Source: an uncultured Bacteroidota bacterium
GTDB lineage: Bacteria > Bacteroidota > Bacteroidia > Flavobacteriales > Flavobacteriaceae
Assembly (NCBI GenBank): GCA_902608795.1
Contig: CACLPI010000004.1
Location: 1 to 64,000 of the forward strand
Direction of reading: 5' to 3'
DNA length: 64,000 nt
Shown here: piece by piece, positions 8,982-51,971 of the stretch
How the letters are laid out: each line of letters starts with the position of its first letter
Position numbering within the stretch: the stretch's first letter is position 1
Translations under genes and position numbers: made by a program
The notes under the pieces: generated by a model
What the model was told of the DNA's origin: nothing
The model's input: the letters and a program-made list of their open reading frames with translations, nothing else
Databases searched by the model: none

Positions 8982-11132
8982 ATGATTAATCTTAAAAAAA
9001 ATATACTAGCTTTTATATTTATATTATTCATCAGCCTGATTAATGCTCAAGAATATTCTTCATTTGTAGATACTAAAATTGGTTCAAAAGGGGATGGTTT
9101 AGCATGTGGCTATAATTTTATTGGAGCTACTTATCCTTTTGGAATGGTTCAATTTACCCCAACATTTTTCTCAGCACACAAGGGCTTTGTAATTACTCAA
9201 CTCAATGGTGCGGGATGTTCGAACCTTGGAAACTTTCCGATATTACCCCTTAGCGGAATCATTGAAAAATCTCCAAATGATATGAATTCTTTTGAAAAAT
9301 ATGAAAAGGTTGAAATAGCAAAAGCAGGACACCTATCCTTAAAAATGAATGAGAATATTGATGTAGATTTAACGGTAACTAAAAGATCAGGAATCGGTAA
9401 ATTTAGTTTTGATAATTCAAATTATGGGACCCTTATTATTGGAACAGGCATAAACTCTTCACCTGCTGAAAGCATAAAAGATGCGTTTGTAAAGATCACC
9501 TCAAATTCAAGCTGTGAAGGCTATACAAGAGGAGGAGATTTTTGTGGTACTGAATCTGATTATAAGATTTATTTTGCAGCTGAATTTGATCGACCTTCAA
9601 TATATAATGGTACTTGGAAAGAAAAAAAACTATCAACTAAAAAAAGTAATTCTGGAAAAAACAGTGGAGCTTACTTCACATTTGATACTAATGAAATTGA
9701 TAAAATAAATTATAGAATAGCAATATCATTTGTTTCAATTGAAAATGCGAAAGAAAATTTAAAAGATGAAGAAAAGCATTTGACATTTGAAGAATATCAA
9801 AGAGAAACTTCTAAAGAGTGGGACAAATATCTTTCGACAATAAAAATTAAATCAAAAAATGAAGATAGAATAAAACAATTTTATACCCATTTTTATCATT
9901 CATTAATTCATCCAAATATTGTAAGTGATGTTAACGGTGAGTATATGGGTGCTGATTTTAAAGTTCATAAAACAAAAGAAAATCGTGAGCAATATAGCTC
10001 TTTCAGTGTATGGGACACTTACAGAACTCAAGGTCAATTAATTGCTATGTTATTTCCTAAAAAAAGCAGTGATATGATGCAATCACTTGTAGATTTTGCT
10101 GAGCAAGCCGGAGGCTATGGAAGGTGGATATTGGCAAATATTGAAACTGGAATTATGCAAGGTGATCCTACTCCAATTTTAATATCCAATTCATATGCAT
10201 TTGGTGGGAATGATTTTGATTTGGAAACCGCTTATAGGTATATGAAAAAGGGTGCACTGACACCAAGGCTATATTCTCAAAAACAAGAGGTTCGTCCTTA
10301 TTTAGAGGAGTATATTAACAATGGTCATACATTTGCATCCATGTCTCTTGAGTATGCATCATCTGATTTTGCAATTGCTCAATTCGCATTAAATGCAGTA
10401 GGAAATGAAGAGGATTACAAGTATTTTAAAAATAGATCTCAAAATTGGAAAAACAACTATAATATAAAAACGAAGTGGTTGAATTCTAAATTTCCAAACG
10501 GCGTCTGGAAAGATAAAACACATGACTGGCGAGAAGGTACTTACAAAAATTATTTTTGGATGGTTCCCCATAATTTAAATAAACTAATTGATACCATTGG
10601 AGGAGCAAGGTTTGCAGAGAAAAGGCTTGATTCTTTATTTATTAAACTTGATGCTGAATATGAAGAAGATTGGTTTGCAGCTGGAAATGAACCAAATTTT
10701 CAGGTGCCGTGGATTTATAACTGGGTGGACAAACCTGAAAAGACCTCAAAAACAATTGAAAGAATATTAAATGAAATGTACAGTAGTGAAGAAGATGGAC
10801 TTCCAGGAAATGACGATTTAGGTACAATGGGAGCATGGTATGTTTTTGCATCAGTAGGACTTTATCCTATGATTCCGGGAGTTGGCGGGTTTTCGATAAA
10901 TATCCCTCAATTTAATTCTATTGATATTAGTCTTCCAAATAATAAAATTTTAAAAATCAGAAAAAATAAATCAAAAAATTATTTCATAAATTCATTGAAA
11001 TATGTTGGAATTGAACAAAATTCAACTTGGATTTCGTGGGATAAAATTAAAAATGGTGGGTTTTTAGATTTTAGTATTTCTGAAAATAATTCGTCTAACT
11101 TAAATTTGATCAAACCACCTAGTTACAACTAA
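8982..11132 (+). CDS. GH92-family alpha-mannosidase (paralogue 1)
   Basis: 'VDTKIGSKGDG..CGYNFIGATYPFGMVQFTP', 'SVWDTYRTQ', 'GNEP', 'GNDDLGTMGAWYVFASVGLYP'. Confidence 0.88.
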   Translation: MINLKKNILAFIFILFISLINAQEYSSFVDTKIGSKGDGLACGYNFIGATYPFGMVQFTPTFFSAHKGFVITQLNGAGCSNLGNFPILPLSGIIEKSPNDMNSFEKYEKVEIAKAGHLSLKMNENIDVDLTVTKRSGIGKFSFDNSNYGTLIIGTGINSSPAESIKDAFVKITSNSSCEGYTRGGDFCGTESDYKIYFAAEFDRPSIYNGTWKEKKLSTKKSNSGKNSGAYFTFDTNEIDKINYRIAISFVSIENAKENLKDEEKHLTFEEYQRETSKEWDKYLSTIKIKSKNEDRIKQFYTHFYHSLIHPNIVSDVNGEYMGADFKVHKTKENREQYSSFSVWDTYRTQGQLIAMLFPKKSSDMMQSLVDFAEQAGGYGRWILANIETGIMQGDPTPILISNSYAFGGNDFDLETAYRYMKKGALTPRLYSQKQEVRPYLEEYINNGHTFASMSLEYASSDFAIAQFALNAVGNEEDYKYFKNRSQNWKNNYNIKTKWLNSKFPNGVWKDKTHDWREGTYKNYFWMVPHNLNKLIDTIGGARFAEKRLDSLFIKLDAEYEEDWFAAGNEPNFQVPWIYNWVDKPEKTSKTIERILNEMYSSEEDGLPGNDDLGTMGAWYVFASVGLYPMIPGVGGFSINIPQFNSIDISLPNNKILKIRKNKSKNYFINSLKYVGIEQNSTWISWDKIKNGGFLDFSISENNSSNLNLIKPPSYN

Positions 11133-37677: not shown

Positions 37678-37911
37678 AATTATACTTTTATTATGGTCAA
37701 ATATATTATAGATTTTCTTTAGAATAGTTCTAAATGTATGATTTTCATATATTTATATTTAGACTTATTAAAAATAAAAGTTTTTAACAGAACTAAATTT
37801 GTGATTTTACTTACTGTGATTAATATGAAAAAAATCAGCAATTTGTAAAACCCTAAACAACTTACTATATTGTTGGAAAAATTAAAAATTAAAAAATTTT
37901 AAAAACCTAAT

Positions 37912-38391
37912 ATGAAAAGAATAATATATTTTACACTGGTATCAACCCTATTATATAGTTGTAATGTAGAGAATAGTAACCAAGATTTTGAAGAGGTAAG
38001 TAATTTCATCGCAAGCCAATTCGATTTTTTCACTAATAGCAGTCTGGAACAAGCGAAAAATACATTTTCAGCAGATGCTGTTTTAATTGGAACTGATGAA
38101 GCTGAGTACTTAAGTGGTTGGACTGAAATTGAACCATCAATTATTGGGCAGCTTGCAATCGAAGACCCTAAATTCTTAACAAGAGATTTAAATATTGTGA
38201 TGAGTGATGCTGGAGATATGGCATCATATACCCAGCTTTTGGATTTCACTTTTTCTGTTGAAGGAGATTCTGGAGAAATAAATAACGTTAGAAATAGTGG
38301 TGTAGTAAAAAAAATTAATGGAGAGTGGAAAATTGTCCAAATTCACTGGTCCATTGGAGTTCAAGGACAAGCAGTAGAATATGAATATTAG
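37912..38391 (+). CDS. NTF2/SnoaL-like lipoprotein
   Basis: Lipobox 'LLYSCNVE'; C-term 'VVKKINGEWKIVQIHWS'. Confidence 0.75.
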   Translation: MKRIIYFTLVSTLLYSCNVENSNQDFEEVSNFIASQFDFFTNSSLEQAKNTFSADAVLIGTDEAEYLSGWTEIEPSIIGQLAIEDPKFLTRDLNIVMSDAGDMASYTQLLDFTFSVEGDSGEINNVRNSGVVKKINGEWKIVQIHWSIGVQGQAVEYEY

Positions 38392-38423
38392 TTCTTTACA
38401 ATAAAATACAATCCATTAATAAA

Positions 38424-38630
38424 ATGGAAAAACTTGAAAAATTAATTTATTCAGTTAAATACCTTCCTCCATTTTTATATTTTGGATCCGCTGGATTAAT
38501 CGCCTATGACATTTATTGTTATTTTATTAAAGAGACTGAATTTCTTAACGAATATTTAGAGTTACTTTTGTTTATTTTATTTTTTTATATGACACACTTA
38601 GGGTTGAAAAATATAAAAAAGAAAAAATAA
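38424..38630 (+). CDS. Small membrane protein
   Basis: 68-aa, two hydrophobic segments. Confidence 0.5.
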   Translation: MEKLEKLIYSVKYLPPFLYFGSAGLIAYDIYCYFIKETEFLNEYLELLLFILFFYMTHLGLKNIKKKK

Positions 38631-38654
38631 TATACATTTATAAAAAGGTGATGA

Positions 38655-38709
38655 AAAATCATAAATATATTTTTCACTAACTTGTTTACACATAAAAAAA
38701 TAAAATATT
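38655..38709 (+). promoter_or_regulatory. Repeated promoter/5'UTR module, gamma-like degenerate copy
   Basis: AAATCATAAATATATTTTTCACTAACTTGTTTACACATAAAA resembles the 49056 and 47565 copies. Confidence 0.45.
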
Positions 38710-39234
38710 ATGAAAAACTATTTAAGATTTTACTTTATGTTGATTATTTCATTGTTATTCCTTGGATGTAATAATGCAGTACAATCAAATGTATTCGGAT
38801 ATGAATACGAGGATGGAAACAAAGTAGATATAACTACTGGAGATCAAGCCTCGCTTCAAGTGATTACAGACTATTTTGAGGCCTATAACAATAAAGATCT
38901 TGAAACTGTTAAAAACTTAGAACACGAGGATTTTTTAGGTTTTTCACATACAGGTCAGGTTGTGGAAGGAAGTGAGAAACATATTGAAATGTCTAAACAA
39001 TTTTTAGATCAGTTTCCCAATGCAAAATGGGAAATATTATGGTCTATTTCTTCAAATATAAATTTTAAAGATAAGCCTTCTGAAAACTGGGTAACTACTT
39101 GCTTAAACATTAGCTTTGGTGAAGGAGAAAATACAAATAATTACCAAAGAATTTTTGATGCACAGATAATAAATGGGAGGATTAAAAATGCTTACTTATT
39201 CCAAAGAGACATGTCAGATAGAGAATTAAAATAA
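38710..39234 (+). CDS. NTF2/SnoaL-like lipoprotein
   Basis: 'TDYFEAYNNKDLETVKNLEHEDFLGFSHTGQVVEGSEKHI' parallels the 17679 ORF. Confidence 0.7.
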   Translation: MKNYLRFYFMLIISLLFLGCNNAVQSNVFGYEYEDGNKVDITTGDQASLQVITDYFEAYNNKDLETVKNLEHEDFLGFSHTGQVVEGSEKHIEMSKQFLDQFPNAKWEILWSISSNINFKDKPSENWVTTCLNISFGEGENTNNYQRIFDAQIINGRIKNAYLFQRDMSDRELK

Positions 39235-39361
39235 TATAAATAAGCTGATATTATTAAATAAAGATACATGAAAAAAATCTATATTAAATGATAGCTTTTT
39301 CTTACTTACCTAGGGTTAACTTTTGTCAGTTTAATTTTCTTTCTTTATAAATATCTAAAAA

Positions 39362-39574
39362 ATGAAAAAACTAAAATCTCCAAACTTTAATCCTTATATC
39401 ATTTTTACGCTTGTTATCCTTGATGTGTTTTTCTTATATAATTTAATTCAATATATCCGTTTCGGACTCGATACACATTTATATGGGTTTATTATTTCTT
39501 TAGGTGCTGGTATTATTATTCTTATCTATCTTTGGAAAAATGACTACTTTCCAAAACACGACAAAACTGAATAA
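39362..39574 (+). CDS. Small two-TM membrane protein
   Basis: 70-aa hydrophobic ORF just before a leader-bearing gene. Confidence 0.5.
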   Translation: MKKLKSPNFNPYIIFTLVILDVFFLYNLIQYIRFGLDTHLYGFIISLGAGIIILIYLWKNDYFPKHDKTE

Positions 39575-39605
39575 ATCAGATTCAAAAAATAAACCCACAA
39601 ACAAA

Positions 39606-39833
39606 ATGAAAAAGCTAATACTATTGCTATTTATTCCAATTGTATTTGCTTGTAATAATGATGATGAGGATATACCTAATATGTGTGTTGATGAATCATT
39701 AATCAATTTAGAGTATGCTTGTACTCAAGAATATCAGCCTGTATGTGGGTGTGACGGGAACACATATGGAAATAGCTGTGAGGCTTTTAATTTTTACGGG
39801 GTTATTGCATATTTGGATGGACCCTGCAACTGA
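39606..39833 (+). CDS. Kazal-type protease-inhibitor-like lipoprotein with repeated leader
   Basis: Leader MKKLILLLFIPIVFAC; 'CTQEYQPVCGCDGNTYGNSCEAFNFYGVIAYLDGPC' Kazal cysteine spacing. Confidence 0.82.
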   Translation: MKKLILLLFIPIVFACNNDDEDIPNMCVDESLINLEYACTQEYQPVCGCDGNTYGNSCEAFNFYGVIAYLDGPCN

Positions 39834-39866
39834 ACTGTAGAAGATATGAAAAATCTAAGACTCTAA

Positions 39867-40310
39867 CTAAATCCATCTTCTGGTTTTAGTCATATATAGT
39901 ATGTAATCTTTACCAAATTTTTCTGTAAGAAAAATCTCTTCTCTTTTAATTTGAAATCTATTTATCCAACAATAAAAAATTACAGGTGTAATAATTGAGA
40001 AAATATTCAAATAAAATATTGATGTTGATGTGACGATCATCAACAAACCTAAATACATAGGGTTTCTTGAATATTTATATATTCCCGAAGTTATAAGTTT
40101 ATTAACTTTTTTAAACTTTATTGGATCAATTGTAGTTTTTGATTTTATAAACTTGAAAATTGGAGTGATTAAAATAAGTACACCTATTAATAGTATAATA
40201 AGTGAGATTAAGTTTTGATTAGGTAAGAAAATTAGATCAATTTTTTTGGATGAAAAATAATTAGAAATAACTAAAATTAGAACCAATAGTGGTGGTGGTA
40301 TTTTTAACAT
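39867..40310 (-). CDS. Isoprenylcysteine carboxyl methyltransferase (ICMT/PEMT)-like membrane protein
   Basis: 'SGIYKYSRNPMYLGLLMI', 'REEIFLTEKFGKDYILYMTKTRRWI'. Confidence 0.85.
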   Translation of the reverse strand: MLKIPPPLLVLILVISNYFSSKKIDLIFLPNQNLISLIILLIGVLILITPIFKFIKSKTTIDPIKFKKVNKLITSGIYKYSRNPMYLGLLMIVTSTSIFYLNIFSIITPVIFYCWINRFQIKREEIFLTEKFGKDYILYMTKTRRWI

Positions 40311-40365
40311 TTTTAAATATTAATTTAATAGTTGTTTGTCAAAATAGTAAATTTTAATAAATACC

Positions 40366-40453
40366 GACATATCAATATCCTCGTTTTTTACTTGACAAAA
40401 CCAAAAAAAACTTTTTCGTTATCTTGCAGATACATTAAACACCTAAATAAGGT
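40366..40453 (+). promoter_or_regulatory. Repeated promoter/5'UTR module, beta type
   Basis: GACATATCAATATCCTCGTTTTTTACTTGACAAAACC...TTTTTCGTTATCTTGCAGATACATTAAACACCTAA; near-copy of 51015-51099. Confidence 0.75.
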
Positions 40454-40537
40454 ATGAAAAAAAATCAAAAATTAATTCTCGCTATTATCGCAGGTTTTCT
40501 TGCTGTAATGATACCATATTTTTTATTCTTCAACTAA
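40454..40537 (+). CDS. Putative 27-aa membrane peptide
   Basis: MKKNQKLILAIIAGFLAVMIPYFLFFN directly downstream of a promoter module. Confidence 0.45.
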   Translation: MKKNQKLILAIIAGFLAVMIPYFLFFN

Positions 40538-40550
40538 ACAAAAATACTAT

Positions 40551-40718
40551 ATGAAAAAAAAAATTATCATAAACCTAATTACTATAGTGATTGGAGTTGG
40601 CATTTTTTTTTATGCACAAGAATTTGGTTTTAACTTTGATAGAGTCGAAGGAATAGGGCTTATTTTACTAATGTTTTTGTTTACAGTTGGTTGTTTTTGG
40701 ACTATAAAAAACCAATAA
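40551..40718 (+). CDS. Putative 55-aa membrane protein
   Basis: MKKKIIINLITIVIGVGIFFYAQEFGFNFDRVEGIGLILLMFLFTVGCFWTIKNQ. Confidence 0.5.
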   Translation: MKKKIIINLITIVIGVGIFFYAQEFGFNFDRVEGIGLILLMFLFTVGCFWTIKNQ

Positions 40719-40741
40719 GAAAGATTAAACTAAAATTCGAC

Positions 40742-40948
40742 ATGAAAAAAACTCATAAAGATTTTTTGATATATACGTTTATTGTTTACCTGGCTGTTGC
40801 AATTGATTTTTTTCCTTTTGAAATTAGATTAAATCCGTTAGATTGGGACAATAAAACACTAGCAAGATTTATGGTAATTTTTTTTGTAATTCTATATTGT
40901 AGTGGATTTTGGAATAAATTGTTTATTAATGAAAAAATCAAAAAATGA
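40742..40948 (+). CDS. Small membrane protein, paralogue of 47093-47284
   Basis: Shared '..FEIRLNPLDWDNKTLARFMVIFFVIL' with 'FEMHLNPLDWNQRKLILFIVFFIL'. Confidence 0.6.
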   Translation: MKKTHKDFLIYTFIVYLAVAIDFFPFEIRLNPLDWDNKTLARFMVIFFVILYCSGFWNKLFINEKIKK

Positions 40949-41877
40949 ATAGGCTAATACTATTACTATTTATTCCACTTGTCTTTGCTTGTGATGAAAA
41001 TATAAACAAATATGAATTTCTCATTAAAGATGAATCTTTTAAAAACAATTTTATTATCAGCGCTAATGAAGACATTATTCAGCTCTCTGAGGGCTTTACT
41101 TATTATAAATGGGAAAATAAAAGTTCGAATATATCTCCAATAGTTTTAGTTCACGGTTTTTCCGTTCCATCATATATATGGGAACCCACTTTCAAAATGC
41201 TAGCTGAAAAAGGCTATTATGTAATTATACTTGATCTTTACGGTCGAGGATACTCTGAAAATTTAGATAAAGCTTACACTGATGAGCTTTTGGCAAATCA
41301 AGTTTTAGATTTGTTGAATGAATTAAATGTTATATCTGCACAATTTATTGGGCTTTCAAATGGTGGCAGAGTTATTTCAAAAGTTGCTGATTTACAACCT
41401 AAAGTTGTAGAAAAACTAATATATGTAGCATCATCAGGGTTTAGAGAGGTAATTGAAGAGACTAATAAATCAGTTTCTGAAAAAGAGGTAATGGATTTTA
41501 TAAGTAAAAACTATCCAACAATTTCAAAAGGACAACTATTAGACTTTAAATACCCTGAGAAACATATTGGGTGGGATGTTAAATATGAAGAGTTGCTCAA
41601 GTATAAAGGATTTGCTAACGCGCTTATATCTACAAGAAAAAATCACTATACAATGGATGAAATACACACCAAGATTCAGCTAAGTACTATCCCTACATAT
41701 ACCATATGGGGAGAAAGCGATAAGGTTGTAGTTTTTGAAAATTTTAAAAAAAGGATTGACTCAATACTCCCAAGAAGAAAGGATTTCTTTATTACTGAGT
41801 CGGGCCATCTACCACATATGGAAAATCAAATTGATTTTAATAAAATATTATTATCAATAATAAAAGATAATATATGA
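40945..41877 (+). CDS. Alpha/beta-hydrolase lipoprotein with repeated leader
   Basis: Leader MNRLILLLFIPLVFAC; 'PIVLVHGFSVPSYIWEPTFKMLAEKGYYVIILDLYGRGYS', 'IGLSNGGRV'. Confidence 0.9.
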   Translation: MNRLILLLFIPLVFACDENINKYEFLIKDESFKNNFIISANEDIIQLSEGFTYYKWENKSSNISPIVLVHGFSVPSYIWEPTFKMLAEKGYYVIILDLYGRGYSENLDKAYTDELLANQVLDLLNELNVISAQFIGLSNGGRVISKVADLQPKVVEKLIYVASSGFREVIEETNKSVSEKEVMDFISKNYPTISKGQLLDFKYPEKHIGWDVKYEELLKYKGFANALISTRKNHYTMDEIHTKIQLSTIPTYTIWGESDKVVVFENFKKRIDSILPRRKDFFITESGHLPHMENQIDFNKILLSIIKDNI

Positions 41878-41878
41878 A

Positions 41879-42865
41879 ATGAAAAAGCTAATACCATTAC
41901 TATTTATTCCACTTGTATTTTGCTGCAATGAGTCAGCTAAATATAGTAATGAATATGAGTTGACTGAAAATTGGATGAAAATACCTGACGATTATGTGTT
42001 AGGAAATCCTACAGGTCTTGCATTGAATTCGAGTCAGAATTTAGTAGTTTATCATAGGGGTTCAAGATCTTGGCAAGTACCAATGCCTGAAGAAAAAATA
42101 ATTGAAGACACCTTTATCGAAATAGATAATATTTCCGGTGAGATAATTAAATCTTGGGGTTCTGAGCTCTTTATAATGCCTCACGGATTAGAAATTGATA
42201 ATGAGGATAATATTTGGATAACAGATGTTGGTCTTCATCAGGTAATTAAATATGATTATAACGGAAATGAATTGTTGGTTCTTGGAGAAGAAAAAACTCC
42301 GGGTAATGATTCATTACACTTTAACCTACCTACAGACATAGCTGTCTCTCAAAATGGGTCTTTTTATGTTAGTGATGGGTATGGAAATAGTAGAATAGTT
42401 AAGTTTTCATCTGCGGGTGAGTATCTATTTGAGTGGGGGGTATTTGGAGAAAATAAAAACGAATTTAATATTCCGCACGGATTAGACTTGGATAAAGAAG
42501 GGAATGTTTATGTCGCCGACAGAGAAAATAATAAGATTCAAAAATTTGACTCATTAGGAAACTTTATAGCTGAATGGGAAAATGAGATAATTGGACAATT
42601 ATATTCTGTTAATGTAAATAATTATGATAACTATCTTTTTGGAATTGATTATATAGGAATCGAAAATTTAGTTCCTATAGGTTCTGATATTATAAAGTTT
42701 GATCTTGATTTAAATTTAAAGTCAAAGTTTGGTAGAAGCGGAAATTATAATGGACCTAAAGCAAGATACCACGATATTGAAGTTGATAATAAAGGAAATA
42801 TTTATGTTGGAGATATTCTAAATAATACTATTCAAAAATTTAAACCAATTAAAACGTTAGATTAA
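41879..42865 (+). CDS. NHL-repeat lipoprotein resembling peptidyl-alpha-hydroxyglycine alpha-amidating lyase, with repeated leader
   Basis: Leader MKKLIPLLFIPLVFCC; 'FNLPTDIAVSQNGSFYVSDGYGNSRIVKFSSAGEYLFEWG', 'IPHGLDLDKEGNVYVADRENNKIQKF'. Confidence 0.8.
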   Translation: MKKLIPLLFIPLVFCCNESAKYSNEYELTENWMKIPDDYVLGNPTGLALNSSQNLVVYHRGSRSWQVPMPEEKIIEDTFIEIDNISGEIIKSWGSELFIMPHGLEIDNEDNIWITDVGLHQVIKYDYNGNELLVLGEEKTPGNDSLHFNLPTDIAVSQNGSFYVSDGYGNSRIVKFSSAGEYLFEWGVFGENKNEFNIPHGLDLDKEGNVYVADRENNKIQKFDSLGNFIAEWENEIIGQLYSVNVNNYDNYLFGIDYIGIENLVPIGSDIIKFDLDLNLKSKFGRSGNYNGPKARYHDIEVDNKGNIYVGDILNNTIQKFKPIKTLD

Positions 42866-45129: not shown

Positions 45130-45203
45130 CCAACATACGACTTGTAAAACCCTAAACAACTTACTAACTTGTAGATACATTAAATAACTTAAAACTAAAT
45201 ATT
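45130..45203 (+). promoter_or_regulatory. Repeated promoter/5'UTR module, alpha type
   Basis: CCAACATACGACTTGTAAAACCCTAAACAACTTACTAACTTGTAGATACATTAAATAACTTAAAACT; TTG (45142-45144), 20-bp spacer, TAACTTG (45165-45171) fits a Bacteroidota -33/-7 promoter. Confidence 0.7.
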
Positions 45204-45437
45204 ATGAAAACTAAATTCAAAGACTTCTTACTTTACTCTTTAGCTTGTGTTGGTGCTGTATCATTATTTTTATCTGTTTCTAACCCTGATGATGATTATT
45301 CTAATGAAAACAATCAGGTTGGAACCTATGCAATTGCTGCTGCCGAAGGTGTTCTCTTTAGAGTAAATACATCAACAGGAGATATTAAAAGAATTAAAAA
45401 AAGTAATATAGGAAAACTTGACCTTAGAAAAGATTAG
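45204..45437 (+). CDS. Hypothetical small secreted protein
   Basis: 77-aa ORF with hydrophobic N-terminus after an alpha module. Confidence 0.55.
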   Translation: MKTKFKDFLLYSLACVGAVSLFLSVSNPDDDYSNENNQVGTYAIAAAEGVLFRVNTSTGDIKRIKKSNIGKLDLRKD

Positions 45438-45447
45438 AGAAAAATAA

Positions 45448-46899
45448 ATGAAAAAACTAATACTATTACTACTAATACCTATAGTCCATAGTGCTCAAAT
45501 AATTCCTGATAATTCAGATTATAATCAGAATATAATTTGGGAAAGTGTTTTCACAGAGGGCAACCCAGGAAAAGTAAATAAAGGTTTAGTAGATTCTGAC
45601 GGAAATGTAGCTGTTGTATTTATGCCAGATAATCAATCAAGAATTCATAAAATTGATGGTCAAAACGGAGAACTAATATGGTCTGTGACAATAAATAATA
45701 CTGTAGGTTTTGGCATTACAGAAATTAATGACAATAACAGAGTTGATTATATAGTTAGTGGCGGATCAGGGAATACACAAGAGAGGTGGATGGCAAGGCT
45801 AAATGGTGATGATGGGTCGATAATTTGGAATCAGAATTATAATTCAAGCGGAAGCTCGTCAATGTTTGATGGTATAAGATCAACTATTATAGGAAATGAC
45901 GGATATATTTATGGCGCAGGATTCATAGGTGGGGACGAGTCTGATACAATTTTTATAGTTTATGGTGGAAGTGCGATGACGATAAAAGTGAACCCATCAA
46001 ATGGACAAGAAATTTGGACAGCAATCAATAATCAAACAGAATATGCAGTCTCTATTGTTGAATCCTCTAATGCAAATCTATATTATGGCTCAACTAATTA
46101 TGAAGGTGATCTAACTTTAACAAAGTTAAATAATAATGGTAATGAATTATGGACGCGTAATCTCATGGGTACTGAAGCAATAATTCCTGCAGACTTGGAT
46201 ATTCACAATGACATAATTTATTATGGTGGACATCGCGAAAGAGAGGGTAATGGAGAGCCGTTTGACTATTCGTCTATCAAAATTGATTTAGAGGCAAATA
46301 TATTCTGGGCTAAACATTATGCAAACCCAAGGGGTTACGATTTAGAATATATTAGAAATGAACTATATGGAATAAAAGTATCAGATGAAGGAATTTATTT
46401 GTTTGGGGGATCGGGGGATGAAAATGAGTCATATTCTGCTGTTAACCCTCCTTTTGAGTCTTCAGATATTTGGAACGGATGGGTTTTGTTCACTGATTTT
46501 AACGGCAACATAATCAGAAGTGATATTTTTTGTCACGAGCAAGTAAATACTGCTACGGAATATGGTGATTTAACCGAAAATGGGTATGTAATATTTAATG
46601 ATACTGATGCATTTGGTGATACCGAAGTTGGCGTAATGAAGATTTTTAATCCAAGTTTAACACACAATAGTTATGATGTTTTAAACTCAATAAAAATTTT
46701 TCCTAATCCATCCTCTGACTATATTAGTATAAACAATGATAAAGAAATAGAAGCAGTTGTGTTTGACCTACTGGGTAAAGAACTAATAAGAGAAAATACT
46801 AACGGAAAGCTTGATATTAGCTGTTTAGAAAAAGGCACTTATATAGTAAATCTAACAGACGGTATAAATACCTCGACTCATAAAATAATCAAAGAGTAA
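45448..46899 (+). CDS. Secreted PQQ-like-repeat protein with T9SS type A domain and leader variant
   Basis: Leader MKKLILLLLIPIVHSAQ; 'KIFPNPSSDYISIN...VVFDLLGKELI...KGTYIVNLTDG...HKIIKE'. Confidence 0.85.
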   Translation: MKKLILLLLIPIVHSAQIIPDNSDYNQNIIWESVFTEGNPGKVNKGLVDSDGNVAVVFMPDNQSRIHKIDGQNGELIWSVTINNTVGFGITEINDNNRVDYIVSGGSGNTQERWMARLNGDDGSIIWNQNYNSSGSSSMFDGIRSTIIGNDGYIYGAGFIGGDESDTIFIVYGGSAMTIKVNPSNGQEIWTAINNQTEYAVSIVESSNANLYYGSTNYEGDLTLTKLNNNGNELWTRNLMGTEAIIPADLDIHNDIIYYGGHREREGNGEPFDYSSIKIDLEANIFWAKHYANPRGYDLEYIRNELYGIKVSDEGIYLFGGSGDENESYSAVNPPFESSDIWNGWVLFTDFNGNIIRSDIFCHEQVNTATEYGDLTENGYVIFNDTDAFGDTEVGVMKIFNPSLTHNSYDVLNSIKIFPNPSSDYISINNDKEIEAVVFDLLGKELIRENTNGKLDISCLEKGTYIVNLTDGINTSTHKIIKE

Positions 46900-46907
46900 G
46901 AAACAAT

Positions 46908-47093
46908 ATGAAAAAGTTTATCAAAGAATATTGGATTCCAATTTTAATAGGTGGAACTTGTACTCCAATGATAAACTATGCAGAAAAGAGTTATGGAGAG
47001 GAAAATAAATGGTACTTATGGTTAGGGTTTTGTTTGTTAATCTTAATGTATATAATTTTTAGCGAAAGAGCTAAAGCAAAAAAAAACAAGTAA
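46908..47093 (+). CDS. Small two-TM membrane protein
   Basis: 61-aa ORF in a tight cluster. Confidence 0.5.
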   Translation: MKKFIKEYWIPILIGGTCTPMINYAEKSYGEENKWYLWLGFCLLILMYIIFSERAKAKKNK

Positions 47094-47284
47094 TGAAAAA
47101 GCTTTTAGAATTAAGTTTAAAATCTGCATTTGTTGCTTATATAGTAAGTGCTTTTGATTTTATTGGAGGTTTTGAAATGCATTTAAATCCATTAGATTGG
47201 AACCAAAGAAAATTAATATTATTTATAGTATTTTTTATATTAACCGCAGTTATAGAAAGTTTCTTTATCAAAAAGAAAAAATGA
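47093..47284 (+). CDS. Small membrane protein, paralogue of 40742-40948
   Basis: Shared 'LNPLDW' core; stop overlaps next ATG. Confidence 0.6.
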   Translation: MKKLLELSLKSAFVAYIVSAFDFIGGFEMHLNPLDWNQRKLILFIVFFILTAVIESFFIKKKK

Positions 47285-47562
47285 AAAAGCTAATACTATT
47301 ACTATTTATTCTATTTATTTTTAATTGTAGTGATAACTCAATTAATGAAAATAATAACTTTAATTACTCTACTGAGCTTGAATCAGATTGTGGTAATTAT
47401 ACCACAAGAGTAAGTCATTGTATAGATGAAGAGCAATATAATTGGATTGATGAAAATTTTATATTAGGTGAGCCCTGCTGGTATATAACAATTATAGATC
47501 TGGAAGGAAACAGTCAAAGTGGGTATGTGAGATCCTGGGGGCTATCTAGTTGTGGGACATAG
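47281..47562 (+). CDS. Small cysteine-containing lipoprotein with repeated leader
   Basis: ATG 47281 gives leader MKKLILLLFILFIFNC. Confidence 0.7.
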   Translation: MKKLILLLFILFIFNCSDNSINENNNFNYSTELESDCGNYTTRVSHCIDEEQYNWIDENFILGEPCWYITIIDLEGNSQSGYVRSWGLSSCGT

Positions 47563-47564
47563 TT

Positions 47565-47628
47565 AACATACAATAAACCATCAATAACTTTTTCACTAAC
47601 TTGTAGATAAATAAAAAAATATAATTAT
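47565..47628 (+). promoter_or_regulatory. Repeated promoter/5'UTR module, gamma type
   Basis: AACATACAATAAACCATCAATAACTTTTTCACTAACTTGTAGATAAATAAA. Confidence 0.65.
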
Positions 47629-47895
47629 ATGAACTTAATGCTGACAGCAAGTTGTAATGATGCTGATGATTTTAAAATAAATGGCTATGAAAAAATAAAA
47701 TCTGAATTTACCGAATGGTGTGATTCTTCAAAATGTGTTTTTTGTAAAATTGATGATAAAAATATTTTAGAACTTTTTTTTGATGTAAACCCACCAAAAC
47801 TTAAAGAATGGTTGGCTAAACCATCCACTCAACAGATTTTTAAGGAGCATAATTTTGTTCCAACAAGATATTCTTTTGAGCCTCTACTGATGTAA
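47629..47895 (+). CDS. Hypothetical small protein
   Basis: 88-aa ORF directly after a gamma module. Confidence 0.6.
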   Translation: MNLMLTASCNDADDFKINGYEKIKSEFTEWCDSSKCVFCKIDDKNILELFFDVNPPKLKEWLAKPSTQQIFKEHNFVPTRYSFEPLLM

Positions 47896-47909
47896 TTTTC
47901 ATAAATAAA

Positions 47910-47955
47910 CCAACATACGATATGAAAAAACTGATAATATTACTTTTTATTCCTC
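47910..47955 (+). repeat. Boundary word CCAACATACGA fused directly to an MKKLI-type leader
   Basis: CCAACATACGATATGAAAAAACTGATAATATTACTTTTTATTCCTCTTG. Confidence 0.75.
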
Positions 47956-48509
47956 TTGCCTCCTATGGACAAATAAACAAGCAAGACTTGAATTTACCTT
48001 TTAGTGATATATCAGAATATCCAACGGAGTTTTCTCAAGCTAACATTGTTACAAGAATGATTGAGGGTCTTGGGTTCAGATATTATTGGGCTTCTAAATC
48101 ACTAAGTCAAAAAGACCTAGAATATAAGTCAAGTGAGGGTGCAAGATCAACATTAGATATAATCAAACATATATATAGCTTGACTAATATGATTTCTTCA
48201 TCATTCAAAAATCAAGCATATAATTTTTCAGATGTTAATTATAATTATAAGGAATTAAGAGAAAAAACACTGCTAAATTTGAAGTATATCCACGAACAAT
48301 TAAAATCAAATCCTGACTTCTCAAAGCTAAAGATAAGGTTTGAAAGAGGTGGTAATATGATGGAGTTTCCGTTTTGGAATCAAATTAATGGGCCCATTGC
48401 AGATGCTTTGTGGCATTGTGGTCAGGTGGTTATGAACAGAAGAGCAAGTGGAAACCCTCTACAATCAGGTGTAAATGTATTTATTGGAAAAACTTCAGGC
48501 TTAGAATAA
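47922..48509 (+). CDS. DinB-like secreted protein with leader variant
   Basis: Leader MKKLIILLFIPLASYGQ; 'LDIIKHIYSLTNMIS...IADALWHCGQVVMNRRASGNPL'. Confidence 0.7.
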   Translation: MKKLIILLFIPLASYGQINKQDLNLPFSDISEYPTEFSQANIVTRMIEGLGFRYYWASKSLSQKDLEYKSSEGARSTLDIIKHIYSLTNMISSSFKNQAYNFSDVNYNYKELREKTLLNLKYIHEQLKSNPDFSKLKIRFERGGNMMEFPFWNQINGPIADALWHCGQVVMNRRASGNPLQSGVNVFIGKTSGLE

Positions 48510-48522
48510 ACTGACATTTTAT

Positions 48523-48561
48523 ATGAAAAAGCTAATACTATTACTATTTATTCCACTTTAA
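48523..48561 (+). pseudogene. Orphan leader remnant (MKKLILLLFIPL*)
   Basis: ATGAAAAAGCTAATACTATTACTATTTATTCCACTTTAA matches the leader consensus, then stops. Confidence 0.75.
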
Positions 48562-48645
48562 TTTATATATTCGCATCACACAAAAAGAATCGGTTTGATT
48601 GATTGCTATGGTTGGCTCTCTTTCGAACCTTTTCACTTTTATAGA

Positions 48646-48710
48646 GCAACATATGATAAACCATAAACAACTTTTCCACTATCTTGTAAGAATCATCCGA
48701 AAATAACATT
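48646..48710 (+). promoter_or_regulatory. Repeated promoter/5'UTR module, gamma type
   Basis: CAACATATGATAAACCATAAACAACTTTTCCACTATCTTGTAAGAATCAT. Confidence 0.65.
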
Positions 48711-49055
48711 ATGAAAAACCTTTTTATTTTATTGTCTTTTCTAATTTTATTTCAAAGTTGTTTTAGTTACAAATCCGTGAGTTATGATACTATTTCAATT
48801 GATAATAAAAAACAAAAGATTCAGGTTGAAATGCTTGATAGAACAAAATTTAACGGTCAATTAGTTTCTAAAGATGATAAAACAATGACTTTAGAAAATA
48901 ATGGAAGTACACAAACAATACTTAAGAAGGATATTTACGAAGTCAAAGTTGTAAAGTTTTCAATACTAAAAACTTTAGGCAGTGTTGCCAAAGGAGGTGC
49001 TTGGGTGGCAGCGGCAGCAGGTATGGTTGTTGTTATTGCTGTATTTGGTTTATAA
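48711..49055 (+). CDS. Hypothetical lipoprotein
   Basis: Lipobox 'ILFQSCFSY'; C-terminal hydrophobic segment. Confidence 0.65.
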   Translation: MKNLFILLSFLILFQSCFSYKSVSYDTISIDNKKQKIQVEMLDRTKFNGQLVSKDDKTMTLENNGSTQTILKKDIYEVKVVKFSILKTLGSVAKGGAWVAAAAGMVVVIAVFGL

Positions 49056-49119
49056 AAACATACGATAAATCATAAATAACATTTTCACTAACTTGCAGAT
49101 ACATTAAACAACTAAAACT
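49056..49119 (+). promoter_or_regulatory. Repeated promoter/5'UTR module, gamma type
   Basis: AAACATACGATAAATCATAAATAACATTTTCACTAACTTGCAGATACATTAAACAACTAAAACT. Confidence 0.7.
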
Positions 49120-49605
49120 GTGAGAGATATATATAACTTTCTTAAAGTCAAACTGTGTTACAGAACCTATTGGAAACAGTGGCTAGCATTCTTGGCTATA
49201 TGCTTTTTAGTCTTAGCTTGTAGTGATGATGATTCAAATGAAGAGTCGGGATCTATTGAAGGAAGATGGTATTTGACAGAATACTATGAAGATGGAGAAG
49301 AGTTGATTCTAGAAGAATGTGATTTAGAATCCTATATGGATTTATCGGATGGAGGAACAGGTGAATATTATCTATACTATACCGACGGTCCTCCTGATCC
49401 TTGTGGATTAGATATAATATATAGTTTAGACTATTATTCTGTCCCAAACACAGTAAATATATTCTCAATAACAATTGATTTTGGAAATGGATCTTATTCT
49501 ATAGCAGAAGGGGTTTTAGAAGGAAATACTCTTAGATTTACAGGAGTTGATGTGGGGGGTGAAAACGACGGAGTAGATTTTATTACAATTTATACCAGAG
49601 ATTAA
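49120..49605 (+). CDS. Lipoprotein with second shared leader type (lipocalin-like/DUF candidate)
   Basis: GTG start; 'MRDIYNFLKVKLCYRTYWKQWLAFLAICFLVLACSDDDS' nearly matches the 51100 leader. Confidence 0.75.
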   Translation: MRDIYNFLKVKLCYRTYWKQWLAFLAICFLVLACSDDDSNEESGSIEGRWYLTEYYEDGEELILEECDLESYMDLSDGGTGEYYLYYTDGPPDPCGLDIIYSLDYYSVPNTVNIFSITIDFGNGSYSIAEGVLEGNTLRFTGVDVGGENDGVDFITIYTRD

Positions 49606-49613
49606 GGATCGAT

Positions 49614-50039
49614 ATGAAAAAGCTAATACTAATACTATTTATTCCACTTGTTTCTTTTGGACAATCTGAAACTGAAAATAATGGTAGACTAAACTATGAA
49701 ATGATTGAAAGTGTACCCATTTTCCCGGGCTGTAAGAGGGGAAATAATGAGAAAAAAAGAAAATGTATGTCTGATAAGATTGCAAAATTTATTGCAAAGG
49801 AGTTTGACGTAGGTTGTGCGGATGGCTTAGGGTTTTCTGGAAGACAAAGAATCTCTGTTATTTTTAAATTTGATACCTTAGGAAGAGCTGTTGAAGTAAA
49901 GGCTCGAGCACGTCATCCTAAATTAGAAAGAGAAGCGGTAAGAGTGGTTAAAATGTTACCTATAGTGAAGCCTGGGACTCAAGATGGAAAAAAAGTAATA
50001 GTCCCATACAGTTTGCCGATATTTTTCATGGCTAATTAA
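49614..50039 (+). CDS. Secreted TonB C-terminal-domain-like protein with repeated leader
   Basis: Leader MKKLILILFIPLVSFGQ; 'IFPGCKRG..EKKRKCMSDKIAKFIAKEF...VIFKFDTLGRAVEVKARARHPKLEREAVRVVKMLPIVKPG'. Confidence 0.8.
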   Translation: MKKLILILFIPLVSFGQSETENNGRLNYEMIESVPIFPGCKRGNNEKKRKCMSDKIAKFIAKEFDVGCADGLGFSGRQRISVIFKFDTLGRAVEVKARARHPKLEREAVRVVKMLPIVKPGTQDGKKVIVPYSLPIFFMAN

Positions 50040-50045
50040 CAACAA

Positions 50046-50063
50046 CCAACATACGATATGAAA
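50046..50063 (+). repeat. Boundary word CCAACATACGA before an ATGAAAAA start
   Basis: CCAACATACGATATGAAAAA. Confidence 0.7.
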
Positions 50064-50213
50064 AAGGATGAAAAAAAAGCTGTTATAATAATATTTATGT
50101 TTGTCTTAATCTTAATTTTAGCTTTAGAGTGTTCTAATCACACTACAGAAAAGAGGCATCAATATGAAATAGAAAAAATTGAGGCAAGATTAGAGGCGGT
50201 AAAAGAAAAATGA
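50058..50213 (+). CDS. Putative 51-aa membrane protein
   Basis: MKKDEKKAVIIIFMFVLILILALECSNHTTEKRHQYEIEKIEARLEAVKEK. Confidence 0.5.
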   Translation: MKKDEKKAVIIIFMFVLILILALECSNHTTEKRHQYEIEKIEARLEAVKEK

Positions 50214-50239
50214 TTCAATAGAAATTAAAAAAGACTAAA

Positions 50240-50305
50240 CCAACATACGACTTGTAGAACCCTAAACAACTTACTAACTTGTAGATAAATTAAACAACTA
50301 AAACT
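50240..50305 (+). promoter_or_regulatory. Repeated promoter/5'UTR module, alpha type
   Basis: CCAACATACGACTTGTAGAACCCTAAACAACTTACTAACTTGTAGATAAATTAAACAACTAAAACT; near-identical to 45130-45203. Confidence 0.75.
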
Positions 50306-50734
50306 ATGAAAAGAAAAGTAAATGCAATTTGGCAAGGAGGTGGAGCAGATGGACAGGGTATATTAACGGCTCAAAGCGGTGCTTTTAATGAAATGCCATA
50401 CAGTTTCAAAACGAGATTTAAAAATGATAACGGTGATCTTGGGACAAATCCTGAGGAATTGATCGCTGCAGCTCTAGCAGGTTGTTTTAATATGAAATTA
50501 AGTTTTGTTCTAAATGAAAACAACTACCATCCTATTGAATTGAATACAGATGCTATACTATTATTTGAAGATGGTAAAATAGTTGAAGTATTACTGAAAC
50601 TTATTGCGAAAGTACCTGAAATTAGTAAAATTTTATTTGATGAATTTGTGCTTGAAGCAAAAAATAATTGCCCTATCTCAGGAGCTTTAAATTGCGATAT
50701 TTCTGTAGATGCTGCATTAGCATCAGGAGACTAG
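50306..50734 (+). CDS. OsmC-family peroxiredoxin
   Basis: 'NPEELIAAALAGCFNMKLSFVL', '...NCPISGAL'. Confidence 0.9.
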   Translation: MKRKVNAIWQGGGADGQGILTAQSGAFNEMPYSFKTRFKNDNGDLGTNPEELIAAALAGCFNMKLSFVLNENNYHPIELNTDAILLFEDGKIVEVLLKLIAKVPEISKILFDEFVLEAKNNCPISGALNCDISVDAALASGD

Positions 50735-50746
50735 CTAACATAAGAT

Positions 50747-50986
50747 ATGAAAAAAGAATACATCGGAGAATCAGGATATATTTTATTTGCTTTAACAACT
50801 ATTGTTGACTTATTAAAAACAGCTAATGATTGGGATTCAATTTCAAATACGATTTTTGAATCCTTATATGTTATTGCATTAGTATTAGTTGCTTTTGATA
50901 TTTACTTGGGATGGAAAAAGAAAAAAAATGTAATAGATCGAATAATTTTACTAATTGTTTTTATTGCTCTTTTCATCTTTTTTTAA
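50747..50986 (+). CDS. Small membrane protein
   Basis: 79-aa hydrophobic ORF after CTAACATAAGATATG boundary variant. Confidence 0.5.
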   Translation: MKKEYIGESGYILFALTTIVDLLKTANDWDSISNTIFESLYVIALVLVAFDIYLGWKKKKNVIDRIILLIVFIALFIFF

Positions 50987-51005
50987 GCACTAATATCAAT
51001 CTTAA

Positions 51006-51099
51006 CCAACATACGACATATCAATATCCTCGTTTCTTACTTGACAAACCATAAACAACTTTTTCACTATCTTGTAGATACATTAAACAACTAAACACT
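51006..51099 (+). promoter_or_regulatory. Repeated promoter/5'UTR module, beta type with boundary word
   Basis: CCAACATACGACATATCAATATCCTCGTTTCTTACTTGACAAACCATAAACAACTTTTTCACTATCTTGTAGATACATTAAACAACTAA. Confidence 0.78.
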
Positions 51100-51609
51100 A
51101 TGCTATCTATATACAACTTTCTTAAAATCAAGCTATGCTACAGAACCTATGGGAGGCAATGGTTAGTTTTCTTTGCTATATGCTTTTTAGTTCTTGCTTG
51201 TAGCGGTGATGATTCTTCATCTTCTAATTCAAGTCAAAACTTTTTAGAAAAATATGACGGAGTTATATGGAAGAATATTGCTGAAGATATTAATGATTCT
51301 AATGGCCTTTGGGACATTTTTACACCTGATGGCTGGGAAGAAACTAGTTATGGTTATGTTGATTCAGGAATATGTGAAATATGGTATACACCTTGGAATA
51401 TAGTTGGTAATTATGGAGATTGGATAAAAGCTGAAGTAATCGATAACTCTATTGATGAATTAATTATTGAAGTTACTGAAACTGACTCTGAAACTTATTT
51501 GATATATATTTCGGCTATAAATAACGGAAATAGCTTACATTTTACTAGTTCATTGTCAAATGAAGAAGAATATTATACGAGGGACACAAGCTCTAATATT
51601 TGCAACTAG
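51100..51609 (+). CDS. Lipoprotein with second shared leader type
   Basis: 'MLSIYNFLKIKLCYRTYGRQWLVFFAICFLVLACSGDDSS' like 49120; body unrelated by eye. Confidence 0.75.
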   Translation: MLSIYNFLKIKLCYRTYGRQWLVFFAICFLVLACSGDDSSSSNSSQNFLEKYDGVIWKNIAEDINDSNGLWDIFTPDGWEETSYGYVDSGICEIWYTPWNIVGNYGDWIKAEVIDNSIDELIIEVTETDSETYLIYISAINNGNSLHFTSSLSNEEEYYTRDTSSNICN

Positions 51610-51622
51610 TCCAACATACGAT

Positions 51623-51754
51623 ATGAAAAAGCTAATACTATTACACACGGATGTAATAAAAGATTCTTTATTAAGTGATAACTCATTTATTATTCTTTTG
51701 ATAGGTCTTGGGGTTTCTATAGCTTTCTTATTACATAAGTTTTTGAAAAAATGA
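51623..51754 (+). CDS. 43-aa chimera of truncated leader and TM segment
   Basis: CCAACATACGATATGAAAAAGCTAATACTATTA then unrelated 'HTDVIKDSLLSDNSFIILLIGLGVSIAFLLHKFLKK'. Confidence 0.5.
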   Translation: MKKLILLHTDVIKDSLLSDNSFIILLIGLGVSIAFLLHKFLKK

Positions 51755-51897
51755 AAAAGCTAAAGAGTGCCAAATGAGTTGCCATATAGTTACCACTTTT
51801 TTACTAACTTTAAGCAAGTTCATTAATAATTGATGTAAAAAAAGAAGCCCCCGATTTCTCGAAGGCTTTTATCTGTGTAGTGTAGCGGTTTCGCTTG

Positions 51898-51971
51898 CTC
51901 CCCCTCTAAGACTCGAACTTAGGACCCTCTGATTAACAGTCAGATGCTCTAACCAACTGAGCTAAGGAGGA
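51898..51971 (-). tRNA. tRNA-Asn (anticodon GTT)
   Basis: Reverse complement TCCTCCTTAGCTCAGTTGGTTAGAGCATCTGACTGTTAATCAGAGGGTCCTAAGTTCGAGTCTTAGAGGGGGAG; loop CTGTTAA. Confidence 0.95.

Follow-up and report, generated by a model that had tools for sequence, protein, structure and literature searches.

Families of surface proteins are known in which gene conversion or cassette exchange joins a constant 5' region, encoding a signal sequence, to variable downstream sequence. At the scale of whole islands, the additive flexible genomic islands of Ca. Actinomarinales use tRNAs as targets for gene cassettes (PMC7771536), those of Ca. Methylopumilus carry repeats of the tRNA-Lys end (PMC10872708), and the tycheposons of Prochlorococcus are reported, in the account summarised there, as cargo transposons of 4-200 kb (PMC10872708). 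Here we describe a gene array within the first 64,000 nucleotides of contig CACLPI010000004.1 from an uncultured member of the Flavobacteriaceae (this whole stretch is referred to as the window), in which an 11-bp word, CCAACATACGA, recurs at the junctions between genes. The units of the array are single genes for signal-peptide proteins, lipoproteins, small membrane proteins and small enzymes. Its location is fixed and its orientation single, the order of its genes is scrambled, single cassettes have passed between species and breakpoints fall at repeats. With about even confidence, we consider the word to be the cassette junction of a genus-wide, tRNA-anchored, one-directional array, into which a tyrosine recombinase, INT, would import DNA at tRNAs and within which single genes would be reshuffled by short-repeat recombination. 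The array is best read as a tRNA-linked additive genomic island in a form not described before; none of the papers searched was found to describe the word, its associated leader or the array.

The word and its tRNA-anchored array

By a base-composition estimate, no 11-mer of the window is more strongly over-represented than CCAACATACGA. A preliminary description, made from the sequence alone, had claimed six exact copies; they are present at the positions given, all on the + strand, and dinucleotide-preserving shuffles of the window contained the word 0.01 times on average and once at most. The count is far above chance, a check that the description had proposed. Beyond the window, the 1.15 Mb of the host assembly (given as 65% complete) hold no further exact copy, and a reversed-word control gave 0 matches there. 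Four variants had also been claimed, and these do lie at gene junctions, although only as approximate copies with 2-3 mismatches (positions 47564, 48646, 49055 and 50735). With 2 mismatches allowed, the window contains 19 matches against 10.5 by chance, about twice the expectation, and the variants are meaningful only because they are located at gene junctions. The extent of 6.5 kb originally proposed for the array proved too short, as related leader and promoter blocks reach upstream to about position 37838.

The genus to which the host belongs comprises small-genome marine Flavobacteriaceae represented by single-cell and metagenome-assembled genomes. We compared 21 species with one genome each, 56-86% complete and in many contigs, a sampling in which strain-level events are not visible. 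At least one exact word was found in 20 of these 21 species; the matches are clustered and mostly on a single strand per contig, a few isolated single matches fall in ordinary coding sequence, and the reversed word gave 5 matches in total. Across 18 genomes, the arrays themselves carry 55 copies where 0.07 would be expected, and a single copy is on the opposite strand. The word stands just 5' of a start codon in at least 42 of the 55 copies and is followed by a promoter block in about ten cases. Among the contigs bearing the element are MED-G13, MED-G59 and many from AG- single-cell genomes. Some of the genomes come from amplified single cells, in which chimeras occur; a chimera artefact is excluded, since many independent cells, and metagenome-assembled genomes as well, show the same junction. 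As a signal of the wider family the word was rejected: in 251 family genomes, the sole convincing match outside the genus (genome G063) is a lone transferred cassette, described below.

In nearly every genome in which both sides could be placed, the main array occupies the same site between conserved flanks, one with FMO and CNNM genes and one with tRNA-Asn, a methyltransferase-like gene, RseP and SCO. The genes of the array that bear a leader are oriented towards the 3' end of tRNA-Asn, and within every locus all leader copies lie on a single strand. Further arrays terminate at tRNA-Ala, including the second locus of the host (L140), and at tRNA-His, so that a tRNA border is present in all placed arrays. 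Most array ends carry a terminal repeat, T, of the form AAAGAGTGCCAAATGAGT(T)GCC..., with TGCCA direct repeats. T can take the exact place of the word behind a cassette tail: in the Kazal family, GATTAAATTAAA is followed by CCAACATACGA in L053 and by GAGTGCC in L052 and L143. The possibility that T corresponds to the region upstream of INT was not retained, as sequence comparison gave no clear match. The 3' half of tRNA-Asn (L036, L038, L045, L046 and others) exists in the genus with two T-arm alleles, TCTAAGACTCGAACTTAG and TCTTGGGCTCGAACCAAG; in G013 the end of one allele adjoins the other, a pattern that would be expected if integrating elements exchanged this half of the tRNA.

A longer element, CCAACATACGATATGAAAAAGCTAATACTATTACTATTTATTCC, has the word as its left part and closes with a signal-peptide leader. 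Context alignment and a genus search with a 73-nt query gave the full form (TAAA)CCAACATACGATATGAAAAAGCTAATACTATTACTATTTATTCCACTT, which extends across the start codon into the leader MKKLILLLFIPL. Copies are shortened from the left or the right at many points and continue into unrelated genes or into nothing: 47 of 124 leaders match nothing upstream of the ATG, and right ends vary in position between the end of the word and that of the leader. The proposal that the word marks cassette-like, modular units is borne out insofar as the word is far above chance, the identity of junctions switches there and recent transferred blocks end at repeats; however, the word is not the sole boundary but part of a word-plus-leader element, and breakpoints also lie at the start codon, in the leader, at T and at the tail of the integrase gene.

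The leader spreads as DNA, as shown by its codons. Same-amino-acid codons of the leader are identical in 84% of cases over 4953 between-genome pairs of mostly unrelated genes, compared with 56% in RseP and 45% at RseP Leu/Ile codons, a comparison of same-amino-acid codons here and below rather than a full substitution model. Leaders are as alike within a genome (0.881) as between genomes (0.892), which indicates one leader pool common to the genus and led us to reject local homogenisation. The sequence TAAACCAAC resembles the complement of a tRNA D-arm, CTAACCAAC, and the word itself looks like a XerD arm; both may be chance resemblances.

Scrambled gene order and transfer between species

Loci of relatives, whose comparison the preliminary description had proposed, show units gained, lost and reordered. 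When genes shared by two genomes were considered, 241/309 neighbour pairs (78%) were conserved in the flank versus 43/403 (11%) among the cassettes. With most neighbours from unrelated families and 11% of neighbour pairs kept, the array does not behave as a simple tandem-duplication family. The modules in front of a given gene also change: depending on the species, the OsmC gene lies behind the alpha block, nothing or a truncated leader, and the SnoaL-like gene behind the gamma block, the beta block or none. These blocks are putative promoters, their role being deduced from sequence. The distance from stop codon to word is a trait of the upstream gene family, being equal in 28 of 56 between-genome pairs (shuffle mean 8.4; 0/5000 shuffles as high). 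Junction pairs that have only the upstream gene in common are alike until the word and at background beyond it, and the reverse holds for pairs that have only the downstream gene in common.

Cassettes are also more alike between species than the genomes that carry them. Same-amino-acid codon identity averages 0.70 for cassettes (789 pairs) versus 0.58 for core genes of the same genome pairs. Individual cassettes go much further: a TonB-like cassette of G001 and G013 reaches 0.96 versus 0.52 in the core and is found at tRNA-Ala in one genome and tRNA-Asn in the other, f43 reaches 0.95 versus 0.58 over 278 codons (G006 and G013), and f46 reaches 0.98 versus 0.56 (G016 and G020); names such as f43, f13 or o487 come from our own clustering of script-called open reading frames (ORFs) and are not database names. 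Blocks were taken as recent when they were at least 91% identical between two species whose core genes are further apart. Their ends lie within 6 nt of the word, the leader, T or the integrase tail in 161/386 cases (42%) versus 4% at random positions, ends that are not independent, the comparisons being overlapping views of the same events. Among left ends near a shared ATGAAA, half are within 2 nt of the ATG. A breakpoint in a close pair reads ...ATATGAAAAAGCTAA and then continues into different genes in G013 and G014.

The extra-genus match mentioned above lies in a different genus (G063, L137, array-sense 9581-10684), as a lone cassette right after tRNA-Leu that consists of a leader, a 363-aa gene, a stop codon and an exact word; its flank is absent from the one congener compared. 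Another genus (G073) has leader-like copies without the word. In its locus L139, leader genes at 1759-2892 and downstream stand behind a repeated promoter-like block, directly after a tyrosine recombinase gene, and in L138 another leader gene is found about 5 kb from a tRNA cluster. These genes possibly represent a related array with its own junction. A viral vehicle was also considered and rejected: IMG/VR gave 14 exact matches to the word followed by ATGAAAAA, which encode the beginning of an unrelated phage protein (MPTYDMKN...), and no match to the leader; two matches to T fall within phage genes. No virus with the element was found, and the usual channel for DNA uptake also appears to be lacking.

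Recombinase genes and features of the window

Each genome of the genus has one or two genes of the XerC/D type (PF00589), assigned to XerC and XerD by size and number rather than by a tree. The tyrosine recombinase INT, of 347-353 aa, is intact in 2/21 genomes, G014, where it adjoins tRNA-Asn, and G012, and degenerate in G008; relatives are sporadic elsewhere in the family (7/251 genomes). In G012 the INT element, with restriction-modification-like cargo, has split tRNA-Asn (L050:12570-13866), leaving a T remnant and the tRNA 3' half left of the integrase gene. G013 has an insert of 1.9 kb that is bounded on both sides by copies of the tRNA 3' end TTGCTCCCCCT. Direct repeats of tRNA genes are found at these two insertions, whereas internal cassette junctions carry the word and leader instead. 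In about ten genomes, the last 15-60 codons of INT are dispersed through the arrays, often next to genes on the minus strand. A second type of cassette boundary was observed in this context, with minus-strand single-gene blocks between direct copies of the integrase-gene end GATATGCCTATGATTTAG (array-sense coordinates L140 7768-8488, L056 13281-13965 and L049 12343-13615).

Searches for other machinery in the 21 genomes gave negative results. Serine recombinase (PF00239) and reverse transcriptase (PF00078) domains were found in 0/21 genomes, and the ComEC/Competence domain (PF03772) in 0/21 versus 10/14 control genomes; it is unlikely that the absence of ComEC, resolvase and reverse transcriptase from all 21 incomplete genomes is a mere gap. 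No protein passed the cut-off for an integron integrase in these genomes, INT scoring 25.7 and 36.2 bits against the TIGR02249 cut-off of 265. Junction-strand DNA folds no better than shuffles (z -1.6 to +1.4), thereby giving no attC-like fold; no GTTRRRY partner was seen in the element when read by eye, and no Rfam family except tRNA was detected.

The upstream part of the array in the window, at 37838..42865, has no exact words and carries SnoaL-like, Kazal, alpha/beta hydrolase and NHL cassettes together with alpha, gamma and beta blocks (these and the following features are on the + strand unless stated). Its Kazal-type leader gene (39606..39833) belongs to a family present in 11 genomes with 25 different neighbours. 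The first exact word (45130..45140) is followed by an alpha block (CTTGTAAAACCCTAAACAACTTACTAACTTGTAGATACATTAAA; 45141..45195), a candidate promoter with Bacteroidota-like -33/-7 spacing that shows 94% identity over 65 nt with 50239-50303. Behind it lie a 77-aa ORF for a small membrane-anchored protein (45204..45437), with a relative in the G017 array, and a leader gene for a beta-propeller (PQQ_2) with a type IX secretion sorting tail (45448..46899), a cassette also found in G012 and G017. The near-identical 3' end coding for this tail, ...NTSTHKIIKE, is common to unrelated cassette genes (window 46840-46899; L047, L050, L052, L055, L056 and L059), with a same-amino-acid codon identity of 0.69 across families (7 genes), and may be another exchangeable module.

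A 93-aa leader lipoprotein ORF (47281..47562) precedes the variant TTAACATACAA (47564..47574; 3 mismatches) and its gamma block. The next ORF, of 88 aa (47629..47895), has a 98% identical counterpart in G017, there too located 5' of the word and of the homologue of the gene at 47922. An exact word (47910..47920) comes directly before the start codon of that gene, a 195-aa leader gene without Pfam match (47922..48509), whose cassette is present in G006, G012, G017 and G020 with differing neighbours. It is followed by an orphan leader stub of 12 signal-peptide codons and TAA, with no gene attached (48523..48561), a stub also present in G008 (L045). Two further variants, at 48646..48656 and, as AAAACATACGA, at 49055..49065, each have 2 mismatches and a gamma block behind them; between them lies a 114-aa cassette (o487; 48711..49055) that occurs in 9 genomes and next to 15 different neighbours. 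A lipocalin-like lipoprotein (Lipocalin_4; 49120..49605), paralogous to the gene at 51100, and a TonB C-terminal-like leader gene (49614..50039), whose cassette occurs in many genomes, come next.

In the remaining part, an exact word (50046..50056) stands directly before the start codon of 50058-50213, and another (50240..50250) before an alpha block and the OsmC-like cassette (50306..50734), whose copies in G009 and G017 lie behind other 5' modules. The variant at 50735..50745, with 2 mismatches, directly precedes the start codon of a 79-aa membrane cassette (50747..50986) that is 92% identical in G006, there behind an exact word. The exact word at 51006..51016 is followed by a beta block (51017..51099), of which a second copy, without exact word, is found at 40368-40450, and by the lipoprotein cassette paralogous to 49120 (51100..51609). 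After the last exact word (51611..51621), a start codon and truncated leader follow directly. T (AAAGAGTGCCAAATGAGTTGCC..., with TGCCA direct repeats; 51762..51845), found in relatives also at tRNA-Ala and tRNA-His, ends the array, and tRNA-Asn lies beyond it on the - strand (51897..51971), its 3' end towards the array. Three classes of sequence had been proposed to follow the word, and the start codon, alpha and beta classes were confirmed. However, a gamma block, TAAACCATAAACAACTTTTTCACTAACTTG, forms a further class after the variants at 47564, 48646 and 49055, and within the direct-start class only 51611 reads exactly as proposed (TATGAAAAAGCTAATA), while 47910 reads TATGAAAAAACTGATA and 50046 reads TATGAAAAAGGATGAA.

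Possible origins of the array and comparison with known systems

Two layers of activity could account for the array as we read it. In one, INT elements would bring in DNA at tRNA-Asn, tRNA-Ala and tRNA-His, in each case at the 3' end, and this import would leave scars in the form of T, integrase tails and tRNA fragments. In the other, recombination between short repeats would reshuffle single genes within the island and pass them from species to species. The repeats in question are the word, the start codon with the following 30-45 nt of leader, T and the tail of the INT gene, and joining of the RecA or microhomology type would preserve the word-and-leader scaffold while swapping the sequence on either side. 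A repeat-joining enzyme, INT as the importer and any advantage to the cell are what we infer. Several points weigh against this reading. Recombination is seen through its results and not as an event; INT, intact in two of the genomes, targets the tRNA; exact words have 11-16 nt in common with promoter-type junctions, which is short for RecA; the lack of ComEC removes the usual route for uptake of free DNA; and the named repeats account for just 42% of recent block ends.

The nearest competitor is a dedicated site-specific cassette system, in which XerC/XerD, or INT acting in trans, would recognise a core around AACATACGATATGAAAAAG and insert or excise single-gene cassettes as IntI does at attC. 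The strict orientation, the constant spacing between stop codon and word within a gene family, with the identity switch at the word, and the ability of T to follow a cassette tail at the exact point of the word would all fit such a system, as would XerC and XerD in the genus, the INT remnants in the arrays and the lone G063 cassette with the leader at one end and the word at the other. However, the inverted-repeat core is no longer than CATA-CGA-TATG, the strands of the word fold no better than shuffles, INT is mostly not intact, and junctions are ragged, with the unmatched upstream sides and variable right ends described above. A dedicated site-specific mechanism is not supported as such: junctions vary by several bases, a pattern that joining by homology or microhomology explains no less well. 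We regard this system as unlikely, if still worth weighing. On the mode of joining itself the evidence points both ways, with ragged junctions in favour of homology- or microhomology-driven joining and the exactness of the word, its strict orientation and the constant tails in favour of a site-specific act. A bolder version, a new gene-capture system whose dedicated recombination activity recognises the word fused to the start-codon and signal-peptide leader and places an incoming ORF behind a ready-made export signal, is held only tentatively, as rather doubtful.

The word could instead be an ordinary expression signal, a 5' untranslated region or promoter-upstream element of co-regulated small genes spread by tandem duplication and divergence, with shuffling as ordinary island turnover. 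Its place just 5' of most start codons, the paralogues at 49120 and 51100 and the promoter blocks after about ten copies agree with this; but the rest of the host assembly has no exact word, where an alpha, beta or gamma promoter block is present the word lies upstream of all of it, the genes flanking the word are mostly of unrelated families, synonymous positions of the leader are conserved between species and between genes that are unrelated, and neighbours are not conserved. This explanation is already disfavoured, and we judge it improbable. It is also quite improbable that the array is an ordinary additive flexible island in which each cassette is a separate integrase insertion at a tRNA, and word and leader are passive hitchhikers. 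The tRNA anchoring, T scars, INT remnants and insertions inside tRNA-Asn speak for it, and published islands of other streamlined marine bacteria act in this way (PMC7771536, PMC10872708), but most internal junctions bear the word or leader rather than tRNA fragments, and single internal genes move between species and between the tRNA-Asn and tRNA-Ala loci without their neighbours. Finally, an array that is unidirectional, with mostly small, mostly unrelated exchangeable genes and a repeated junction, recalls an integron or an integrase-less attC array (CALIN). No integrase above cut-off and no attC-like fold were found in the searches above, and, in agreement with the preliminary description, the context of the word, TAAACCAAC, departs from RYYYAAC without a GTTRRRY partner; the integron explanation is effectively refuted.

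If the gene-capture reading were true, the work of an integron would be done without IntI or attC. The array in any case bears on how streamlined ocean bacteria retain a fluid gene pool after losing most mobile-element machinery: a genus apparently without ComEC, resolvases and integron integrases still trades single genes at defined junctions and defined loci among species that are far diverged at synonymous sites. A portable leader of this kind also hints at how reading frames new to a genome may be exported at once. The junction element is also short and exact enough for counting in metagenomes and for laboratory testing.

Like the additive flexible islands, this array is a fixed tRNA island with small cassettes gained and lost, exchange across species and tRNA-fragment scars at some insertions. 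However, those islands mark the ends of cassettes with tRNA-gene fragments, whereas nearly all internal junctions here consist of a non-tRNA word and a portable leader, and the units are single genes with interchangeable promoter blocks. Tycheposons, as far as the summary cited above goes, are tRNA-bordered islands linked to a tyrosine recombinase in small-genome open-ocean bacteria. A tRNA border is present here as well, but in many cases the unit that moves within the island is a single gene, and the recombinase survives mostly in decayed form, intact in two genomes and as tails in about ten loci. With the surface-protein cassette families the array has in common a constant signal-sequence region and a variable downstream part, the latter being here unrelated complete genes and not variants of one gene. 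Integron arrays (IntI/attC) also combine unidirectional small unrelated genes, a repeated junction, shuffled order and exchange between species; in contrast to them, the present array has no IntI, attC fold or R/L boxes, its breakpoints are ragged, its cassettes often come with promoters, and its junction reaches into the coding sequence as a leader.

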